The notes under the pieces: model-generated
The model's database searches: none
Told to the model about the DNA's origin: nothing
The model's input: the letters and a program-made list of their open reading frames with translations, nothing else
DNA from: Nitrospirae bacterium CG2_30_53_67
Lineage (GTDB): Bacteria > CG2-30-53-67
Reading direction: 5' to 3'
NCBI GenBank assembly: GCA_001873285.1
Contig: MNYV01000014.1
Location: forward strand, 1 to 5,432
DNA length: 5,432 nt
Position numbers and translations under genes: made by a program
Shown: in pieces, positions 3,077-5,432 of the stretch
How the letters are laid out: each line of letters starts with the position of its first letter
Numbering within the stretch: position 1 is the first letter of the stretch

Positions 3077-3421
3077 TTACTTTGCGGTTTTGGGCAGGTC
3101 GGCCCCCTTGACCTCTACGGTGATCATGGGTTTGATCTTCTCCAGGAGCTTCTCCCCGATCCCCTTGACCTTGAGGAGATCCTCCGCCGAGGCAAAGGGC
3201 CCGTTCTGGGTCCGGTATGCCACAATGGCCTCGGCCTTTTTCTCCCCGAGTCCGGGAAGCGCACTGATTTCTGCAGCCGTGGCCTGGTTCAGATTGATCT
3301 TCTCGGTCTTGGTTTTGGCGGATACGGCCTGGTCCGCGGCCCCGGCAGGCGCCGCCAAAAACCCGGAAAAGACCATGAGGCAGAAGAGGGTCATCAGTGA
3401 AAGATATGTTTTCTTATTCAT
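3077..3421 (-). CDS. Exported ComEA-like helix-hairpin-helix protein, complete, 114 residues
   Basis: A small secreted or periplasmic protein with a double helix-hairpin-helix DNA-binding domain of the ComEA type. Residues 1-29 look like a Sec signal peptide: MNKK, a hydrophobic core around 6-23, then APAGAA before the mature part. A short charged linker (about 30-40) leads to KINLNQATAAEISALPGLG (41-59), the characteristic ComEA opening. The two HhH hairpins are centred on LPGLGEKKAEAI (55-66) and VKGIGEKLLEKI (85-96), with NGPFASAEDLLKV between them. In competent bacteria ComEA binds incoming double-stranded DNA outside the inner membrane. Many non-competent bacteria carry such stand-alone short forms, and no comEC or pilus gene is visible here, so a role in uptake is only a possibility. 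AAGGAG lies nine bases before the ATG at 3421. The gene is monocistronic in appearance: a hairpin follows it, and a 205-base gap with its own promoter separates ETF-QO. Confidence 0.9.
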   Translation of the reverse strand: MNKKTYLSLMTLFCLMVFSGFLAAPAGAADQAVSAKTKTEKINLNQATAAEISALPGLGEKKAEAIVAYRTQNGPFASAEDLLKVKGIGEKLLEKIKPMITVEVKGADLPKTAK

Positions 3422-3704: not shown

Positions 3705-3764
3705 TAAAATTCGGAACAGCCGTTATGCCCTGCTACACATAGCGACGGAAGTCTTAATCAGTTT

Positions 3765-3896
3765 GTCATTGTCCGGCTCGACCGGACAATCCACCCTTCG
3801 ACAGGCTCAGGGTGACAATTGTCATGGTGAGCTTGTCGAACCATGGATTCCCCGATCAAGCCTGCCCTCGACTGCGATCGGGGGCCGGGGAATGAC
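3765..3896. repeat. Composite REP/REPIN-like palindromic element, 132 bases
   Basis: The element starts GTCATT and ends AATGAC. Its core, 3788-3849, is a 62-base imperfect palindrome centred between 3818 and 3819 on ACAATTGT. The core holds two inverted hairpins: CACCCT/AGGGTG (3792-3797, 3809-3814) and CATGGT/ACCATG (3823-3828, 3840-3845), with matching 11-base loops (GAGCCTGTCGA in reverse, GAGCTTGTCGA forward). Outside these lie a left hairpin ATTGTCCGG/CCGGACAAT with a CTCGA loop (3768-3790) and a right counterpart (3847-3893) with nine-base arms, a TCAAG loop and 24 extra bases at 3861-3884. Removing those 24 bases restores mirror symmetry over the whole element. The inner units resemble the widely dispersed CCTTCGACAGGCTCAGG / GGTTCGACAAGCTCACC repeats of many bacteria, and the outer ones the GTCATTCCC...GGGAATCCA palindromes (recognised from memory). 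Such repeats are thought to be moved by RAYT-type transposases; none is encoded here. Confidence 0.85.
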
Positions 3897-3924
3897 GTTG
3901 TTTGTTTATGTCGCTCTGTATAAG
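3897..3924 (+). promoter_or_regulatory. Candidate promoter for the S8 protease
   Basis: TATAAG (3919-3924) matches five of six -10 consensus bases and would place the start near 3931, about 20 bases before the ATG. The -35 is weak: GTTGTT (3897-3902) at 16 bases, or TTGTTT (3898-3903) at 15 bases. It begins exactly at the right edge of the composite palindrome, so the element may supply or displace upstream promoter sequence. Moderate to low confidence. Confidence 0.4.
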
Positions 3925-3949: not shown

Positions 3950-5432
3950 ATGTCAAAATCCCTCTTCCGTATCTTTCTGATCGTATGTCTCTTCGCCGTG
4001 ACCCTCTGCATGGGAGCGTCCCCGCTTTTTGCCGGGGATGATTATGTCCCGGGTGAGATCATCGTCCGCTACAAGGCTGATGTCTCGGGCTCGGCTGTGG
4101 CCCGGTCCCTGAGCGAGAAAGGAGCGACTCGGCTGGGCAGCCTGAACAAGCTCAATATTCATTTTGTGGCTCTCCCCCGGGAAACCGGTGTGGAAGACGC
4201 TCTGGATACCTATCGCAAGGACCCCAATGTCCTTTATGCCGAGCCCAACTACAGGGTCCATGCCCTATCTACCTTTCCCAATGAAAGAAACCTTGATGAA
4301 TTTAAACAACAGTGGGGTTTAAATAACACTGGTCCAAGCGGCCCGGCCATTGGTCCATCAGGTTTAAAAGGAACGGATAATGCAGATATTAATGCCCCCG
4401 AAGCTTGGGACATACAAACAGGTTCTTCCAGCACGGTCATCGCCGTCCTGGATACGGGCATGGACCTGAACCATGAGGACTTGTCTGCGCACCTCTGGAC
4501 CAACTCCGGGGAGACCGCCTCCAACAGCAAAGACGATGACGGAAACGGCTACGTGGACGACAAAAACGGGTGGGACTTTGTGAACAACGACAACGACCCG
4601 GACGACGACAATGTCCGTTCCGGAAGCAGCGTGAACAGCCACGGCACTCATATCAGCGGGATCATCGGCGCCGTTTCCGACAACCTGAAAGGCGTGGGCG
4701 GCATCAACTGGAATGTCAAGCTCATGATCCTCAAGGTCCTTGACCAGAACGGCGAGGGAACCGTGAGCAATATCATATCGGCGATCCAGTACGCCGTGGA
4801 CAAAGGGGTAAACATCATGAACGCGAGCTGGGGACTCACAAGCTTCAGCCAGTCCCTCTATGACGAGATCAAGAGCGCCGGAGAGAGCGGCGCCCTGATC
4901 GTCACCGCTGCAGGGAACACCAGTTCCGTGGAGTACCCTGCCCGCTTCAATCTGGACAACATCATCTCGGTCACCGCCACCGGGCTCAGCGACGAGCTGA
5001 CCGATTTCGGGACGGGCACAAAAGCCGCCACGGATGTGGAGGATGTGGACCTCGGCGCTCCGGGCCATCTGATCTACAGCACCATCATTATGAATGATGG
5101 CCCATCGAATGAAAGCTATTACTGGAAGGACGGAACATCCCAGGCCACGGCCTTTGTCACCGGCGTTGCGGGTCTTCTCCTTTCAGAGGATTCAACCCTC
5201 ACGGCCGCCAAGATCAAGACACGAATCCTGAAAAGTGTGGATTCCGTCTCCGACCTGGCCTCGGTGACCGTGAGCGGCGGGCGTCTGGACGCTTTCGAAG
5301 CACTGTCCAGCCAGGTCGTGATTGTCCCATTCGGTACGGGATTGAATGTGGGAGAGACCAAGCAGTTCACCCTGGACGGTGCCACGGCCACAAGCTGGTC
5401 ATCCAGCGACACGAGCGTGGGGACCATTGATT
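3950..5432 (+). CDS. Secreted subtilisin-like (S8) serine protease with start of a Big-type C-terminal domain (3' end cut by window edge)
   Basis: The first 494 codons of an exported serine endopeptidase are visible. The start is supported by AAGGAGGT six bases before the ATG. Residues 1-29 form a Sec signal peptide (MSKSLFRIF, hydrophobic core, SPLFAG). Residues about 31-105 (YVPGEIIVRYK ... VLYAEPNYRV) are a propeptide of the fervidolysin/I9-like kind, which normally folds and inhibits the enzyme before self-cleavage. The catalytic domain runs about 120-455: QWGLNNTG (121-128), Asp168 in AVLDTGMD, an acidic loop DDDGNGYVDDKNGWDF (195-210) that may bind Ca2+, His231 in NSHGTHISG, oxyanion Asn323 in TAAGN, and Ser397 in DGTSQATAFVTG. 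From about 455 (VVIVPFGTGLNVGETKQFTL ... TSWSSSDTSV) it resembles the opening of a bacterial Ig-like Big_2 domain. The natural end lies beyond the window. Residues about 105-158 use different codons from the rest (TTA, AGA, CTA and CAA occur only there). Substrate unknown. Confidence 0.93.
   Translation, partial: MSKSLFRIFLIVCLFAVTLCMGASPLFAGDDYVPGEIIVRYKADVSGSAVARSLSEKGATRLGSLNKLNIHFVALPRETGVEDALDTYRKDPNVLYAEPNYRVHALSTFPNERNLDEFKQQWGLNNTGPSGPAIGPSGLKGTDNADINAPEAWDIQTGSSSTVIAVLDTGMDLNHEDLSAHLWTNSGETASNSKDDDGNGYVDDKNGWDFVNNDNDPDDDNVRSGSSVNSHGTHISGIIGAVSDNLKGVGGINWNVKLMILKVLDQNGEGTVSNIISAIQYAVDKGVNIMNASWGLTSFSQSLYDEIKSAGESGALIVTAAGNTSSVEYPARFNLDNIISVTATGLSDELTDFGTGTKAATDVEDVDLGAPGHLIYSTIIMNDGPSNESYYWKDGTSQATAFVTGVAGLLLSEDSTLTAAKIKTRILKSVDSVSDLASVTVSGGRLDAFEALSSQVVIVPFGTGLNVGETKQFTLDGATATSWSSSDTSVGTID

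Follow-up and report, generated by a model that had tools for sequence, protein, structure and literature searches.

Nested REP-like hairpins as probable cargo of small non-autonomous transposons in Nitrospirae bacterium CG2_30_53_67

Four hairpins around one axis

The window considered here, meaning the whole stretch of DNA that was analysed, comprises 5,432 nucleotides of Nitrospirae bacterium CG2_30_53_67 (contig MNYV01000014.1, forward strand), and it holds two divergent genes, one for a ComEA-type helix-hairpin-helix protein (3077-3421, minus strand; TIGR00426, 4.5e-24) and one for a subtilase (Peptidase_S8; 3953-5432, plus strand, running off the window; Pfam PF00082, 1.4e-49), with a palindrome of four nested hairpins at 3765-3896 between them. 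Another intergenic part of the window, 930-1140, is rich in short CCCTTGACCCCT-like repeats, and similar text lies near other elements, for example at locus L239. The symmetry axis of the palindrome can be read directly from the sequence at 3818/3819, within the CAATTG of a central spacer, ACAATTGT (3815-3822), and a repeat search of the window returned one overlapping 47-nt palindrome, 77% complementary, that spans the region. To the left of the axis lie an outer hairpin (3765-3793, plus strand), which reads GTC-ATTGTCCGG-CTCGA-CCGGACAAT-CCA and has a TGTC tag, a 9-bp stem, the loop CTCGA and the tail CCA, and an inner hairpin (3792-3814, plus strand), CACCC-TTCGACAGGCTCA-GGGTG. To the right follow an inner hairpin on the minus strand (3823-3845), CATGG-TTCGACAAGCTCA-CCATG, of a type that also occurs in other families and more distant lineages, and an outer hairpin, again on the minus strand (3844-3896), GTC-ATTCCCCG...CGGGGAAT-CCA, with a CGTC tag, a CCA tail and an extended variable loop that includes 3861-3884. 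Both outer hairpins are CGTC-type REP units; the left one has every feature of the published consensus, and the right one has its tag, stem and tail but a long variable loop. The region folds better than 200 of 200 dinucleotide shuffles, whether treated as DNA (z -4.7) or RNA (z -5.3), and Rfam gave no match at gathering score anywhere in the window.

The preliminary description had read the region as two REP-like hairpin types, each present as an inverted pair on the single axis 3818/3819, and direct reading bears this out, together with the different stems and the conserved loop (TTCGACARGCTCA) of the inner pair; the outer pair sets a ATTGTCCGG stem against a ATTCCCCG stem. The 24 bases at 3861-3884 had been taken for a discrete insertion in one arm, but many of the host loci compared have a loop of another length and sequence in the right outer hairpin, and these bases are one state of that loop. 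Deleting them was said to restore full symmetry; this holds for the stems but not for the loops, which are then 8 and 5 nt long, and the symmetry restored is therefore that of the stems.

The stems covary. Among 62 distinct related hairpins of the inner type in the retrieved loci, 28 are unique, and in these 28 units (relatedness ignored) the three variable pairs are 89-96% complementary, as against 48-49% with partners shuffled; in the outer stems the two most variable pairs are 94% and 90% complementary, as against 48-49% shuffled (93 unique units, relatedness again ignored). The compensatory changes first noticed between the arms of one copy are thus confirmed across copies, which were tested for a lack of covariation and gave the opposite. 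Strong covariation could be taken to mean that the host selects the structure, for instance as a protein-binding DNA site, an mRNA stabiliser or an attenuator kept for its fold, with mobility incidental; however, template-switch correction of palindromes may yield covariation without selection, and the positions of the copies, considered below, also bear on this reading.

Recurrence of the core and its carrier in the window

Copy counts rest on sequence searches of the host genome and on loci retrieved around the matches. With 3755-3910 as the query the host genome gave 98 matches, including a 99% copy on contig C25 and many at 85-98%, and the near-identical core has about 24 copies in the host, or 26 distinct loci if the loosest matches are admitted, of which a few are truncated, and at least 7 in the sister species; a stricter parse recovers 31 distinct cores, 24 of them from the host and 7 from the sister species, which show 0-2 mismatches over their 53 bp. 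The same four-part order repeats across the host loci, so the four hairpins do co-occur elsewhere, as the earlier description of a composite unit had supposed. A chance pile-up of four unrelated hairpins, which could appeal to the separate occurrence of every hairpin type in other lineages, is extremely improbable given the identical order in some 24 copies from the host and in those of the sister species, and chance adjacency is ruled out by this recurrence. In a collection of 84,980 species (host records having possibly been left out) an exact 46-base piece of the core was found in only one other genome, that of the sister species, which belongs to the same genus and is the Hainich groundwater isolate H32-bin143-1; the four genomes of the same family examined have only single hairpins or none. 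The TTCGACARGCTCA hairpin alone is spread over distant lineages, often paired again as GGG-stem and CCA-stem types, and a search of the available literature by sequence found no report of the TTCGACARGCTCA repeat. The outer pair also occurs with a short spacer, in 20 dimers in the host and 9 in the sister species besides the core-bearing ones, so that there are many dispersed copies, mostly head-to-head dimers, as in CGTC REPs. In 25 of 25 short-spacer dimers the two stems are unlike, CCCC being most often combined with GTCC, and every parsed core-bearing copy likewise joins two different stems. Near other copies further repeats were seen: on host contig C106 (locus L018) a core-bearing half element adjoins repeats resembling two CRISPR repeat types, and the left flank of the element on C111 (L112; L209-L217, L219) is itself a dispersed repeat with more than 20 copies in the sister species.

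Many of the REP dimers are enclosed in MITEs with terminal inverted repeats, of which there are at least two kinds, and the copy in the window is a carrier of the kind called type B here, 189 bp long (3734-3922). Its left arm (3734-3764, plus strand) consists of a terminal TACACATAGCGAC (3734-3746), matched in inverted orientation by 3910-3922, and a subterminal GGAAGTCTTAATCAGTTT; this arm recurs in other host copies. Its right arm (3897-3922, plus strand) ends in GTCGCTCTGTATA and is also found in the C25 twin. With imperfect 13-bp terminal inverted repeats the copy has the size and ends of a MITE, and related arms lie at several other host loci. The limits proposed earlier, 3765-3896, thus enclose the four hairpins correctly but not the unit as a whole, which the conserved arms stretch to 3734-3922. 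Sister-species DNA aligns up to 3734 and again from 3924, and the window element is absent from the orthologous site. That site (G001:C23:4530-4660) holds a different sequence of about 130 bp and is therefore not simply empty; the sequence resembles another dispersed repeat. The C25 twin is cleanly missing at its own orthologous site in the sister species. A TA target duplication is suspected for type B, the search for a type B transposase found none, and the window copy, with its TACACATAGCGAC and GTCGCTCTGTATA ends, has no ISKra4-type ends.

The positions of the copies return the argument to selection by the host. Ribosome sites directly follow several type B copies. One such element (loci L149 and L244) separates two neighbouring genes of the same direction, which by eye are nuoJ and nuoK, and ends shortly ahead of the ribosome site of the second, so that transcription of the element is expected; moreover, the core hardly varies even though the two species have an identity of 81-82% in this region. 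All this would suit a structure kept for its fold, but copies are absent at orthologous sites, and their positions are therefore not conserved, while the window copy, whose right end is followed about 30 bp later by the start of the subtilase gene, lies between divergent genes and not in the downstream position that is usual for REPs (PMC3733652). I therefore regard host selection as an unlikely explanation for the element. A terminator role was rejected as the main reading of the window copy on account of its position between divergent genes.

Type A carriers, promoters and exchange of the core

The other carriers, type A, have the arms and ends GGGTSTGCGACAAATTTATGGGTA, that is, inverted ends starting with GGG. 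The host genome holds 26 complete elements with both ends, 96-288 bp long and devoid of coding capacity, which again is the size, below about 300 bp, and the end structure of a MITE; ten of the 26 contain the core, nine a short-spacer dimer and seven no dimer. The two flanks of these 26 elements are most alike over a length of exactly 9 bp (identity 0.75, as opposed to 0.26-0.46 over 5-8 and 10-12 bp); many of the target duplications are perfect at 9/9, and core-bearing copies are among the elements with a 9-bp duplication. For two elements, one with a short-spacer dimer (C45) and one with the core (C95), the sister species has an empty site with a single copy of the target, and the type A element on C76 is likewise absent from the sister species. 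The element had been described as possibly non-autonomous, and the MITE-type ends, the lack of coding capacity and the 9-bp duplications of type A substantiate this.

A source for type A can be suggested. A broken insertion sequence, split across the ends of contigs C177 and C56, has the same ends as type A and a 9-bp duplication (ctcctcttg), and the C-terminal 82 aa of its transposase match the last 70 positions of NF033572 (NCBIfam ISKra4) at 7.4e-31, a match that stays below the whole-protein cut-off because the protein is a fragment. It is the only transposase fragment found with ends matching type A. In the sister species many contigs terminate in an insertion-sequence element with a type A end, whose last codons, in our own reading, give WENRACA-stop where the host has WEQRACA-stop; a full ISKra4 protein was looked for in that genome and not found, the copies of the element there stopping at contig borders. 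By the ends that it has in common with a transposase fragment in the same genome, type A reads as an ISKra4-derived MITE.

Terminal inverted repeats and target duplications point to DDE transposition and not to RAYT activity, and transposition by Y1 enzymes (IS200/IS605) leaves no target duplication. This matters for the proposal, raised in the preliminary description, that the unit is related to REPINs and that a RAYT gene should be sought. In a RAYT-driven system the inverted REP doublet would itself be the mobile unit, and a Y1 transposase would move it in single-stranded form. Several observations speak for it, since inverted REP doublets forming hairpins are what defines a REPIN (PMC3116915) and are present here, different carriers share the core, which would be expected if it moved independently of them, and the host does have Y1 transposases: one complete gene, whose product has a DnaA-like C-terminus and scores just above the cut-off of NF047646, and two partial genes, both at contig ends. 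However, neither repeat type was found in the 3.3 kb around the complete gene, searched to a distance of about 1.5 kb from it, and the type A copies have 9-bp duplications, unlike Y1 movement, so that the movement without duplication expected of a REPIN is not what type A displays. The lack of repeats near the Y1 genes and the duplications are therefore evidence against RAYT-driven movement, which I consider improbable, with a small opening left to it by the unfinished contigs.

Type A elements also keep a fixed distance to promoters. A -35 box lies at offset 16 from one end of the element (the 9-bp duplication plus 7 nt), with the element upstream of the box: over the 26 elements, taking the better of the two sides, the match to TTGACA averages 3.88 of 6 at this offset and 2.08 +/- 0.22 at others, half of the elements (13/26) match at 5 or more of the 6 bases, and none of 5000 random-offset controls reached the result at offset 16. 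The data in which this offset was spotted are also those on which it was then tested, and the better-of-two-sides rule raises the baseline, although the controls were scored by that rule as well. Where the -35 match reaches 4/6 or more (17 elements), a match to TATAAT peaks at offset 39, the canonical spacing of 17 nt, and this -10 peak played no part in the choice of offset 16. The loci concerned are L086-L119 in the host and L168, L170, L174 and L183 in the sister species, where copies of the insertion sequence have the same -35 spacing in several cases; the type B copy in the window has no such box, judged by eye. A large survey found that ISKra4 and ISLre2 elements favour distances of 50-250 bp from genes (PMC9208149), which is consistent with this, and the 16-nt distance hints at an insertion sequence that selects promoters yet leaves them intact.

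A second route of spread is suggested by the core itself. The window copy and its C25 twin are identical over about 147 inner bases and have different terminal arms, and simple transposition would copy the ends too; the inner part would therefore have been exchanged by recombination or conversion, and the pattern appears to fit conversion better than simple transposition. In the host the core is oriented one way relative to the stem types in 10 cases and the other way in 9, and it occurs across unrelated carrier arms. There is also a third arm type, TTAAGGCTGCATA-like, on host contigs C99 and C16 (loci L012, L020 and L009), with an outer stem pair of its own, CTCC/GCCC, and these copies carry the same core in both orientations. 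A near-invariant core (at most 2 differences in 53 bases), the 10:9 orientation and the unrelated arms together suggest recombination via the palindromic arms, a route made testable by the presence of the core in different carriers and in both orientations. At an apparently common site, host C36 (L242) and sister-species C7 (L235) have their arms swapped relative to core and flank; this was rejected as proof of a flip in place, as the left flanks do not align and two independent insertions are possible. Tentatively, the 53-bp core might be regarded as an exchangeable cassette that passes in either orientation between unrelated MITE families, with the palindromic REP arms as a general docking site, and the transposase that delivers the type A carriers as one that recognises sigma70-type promoters and places its insertions a fixed number of bases ahead of the -35 box; I would not yet rely on this combined reading.

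The explanation that I consider probable is that the nested hairpins are the cargo of a small non-autonomous transposon (MITE) with carrier-specific ends, and that the core is exchanged between carriers. The outer palindrome is a CGTC-type REP heterodimer, the spacer of which is filled by a second REP-like heterodimer with TTCGACARGCTCA loops, and the specific terminal arms would confer mobility on the whole unit. The ISKra4 transposase would act in trans on type A, and a transposase other than that of type A would have moved the type B copy in the window. Identity patterns point to recombination or gene conversion via the palindromic arms as the means by which the nested core changes carriers, in either orientation, which would account both for one core in different carriers and for the 10:9 ratio. 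No host function would be required, and any effects on neighbouring genes would be secondary.

Relation to known repeat systems

The closest relatives are the CGTC-tagged REPs (Di Nocera et al., 2013, PMC3733652), for which that survey found no association with a transposase, did not settle the mode of movement and noted, but did not explain, a preference for heterodimers. The outer pair resembles them in its CGTC/TGTC tag, a stem of 8-9 bp starting with AT, a loop of about 5 nt, the CCA tail, the head-to-head arrangement and this same preference; unlike the REPs described there, it has a second, widely spread REP-like heterodimer for a spacer and one outer loop that is long and variable, and its dimers are the cargo of transposon-ended elements with target duplications. 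The paper also describes REP dimers whose spacer holds two hairpins and others enclosed by a longer palindrome, and given these precedents the nesting is a variant and not a new class; of the earlier suggestion of a distinct non-autonomous element, the non-autonomy stands and the distinct class does not. Among the examples there, the CGTC-1 dimers of H. neapolitanus (41-bp palindromes) and the GTAG-15 dimers of A. variabilis (TATAGGA palindromes) likewise lie inside a longer inverted repeat, although the section consulted does not tie those outer palindromes to a transposase or to target duplications.

With REPINs and their RAYTs (Bertels and Rainey, 2011, PMC3116915) the element has in common an inverted pair of REP units that forms a hairpin, numerous scattered extragenic copies and non-autonomy, and it differs from them in lacking a linked RAYT and in having transposon-type ends, 9-bp duplications and a nested second doublet. 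It likewise resembles the ISKra4-family insertion sequences and bacterial MITEs in its GGG-starting inverted ends, 9-bp duplication, lack of coding capacity and length of 96-288 bp, but its interior consists of nested REP dimers and not of a deleted transposase gene; a search of the available literature for ISKra4 MITEs found no paper. What is new here is the occurrence of nested REP heterodimers as cargo of transposon-ended elements, and this offers one concrete answer, in one lineage, to the question of how CGTC REPs move, namely as the cargo of mini-transposons, an answer that can now be put to the test in other lineages.
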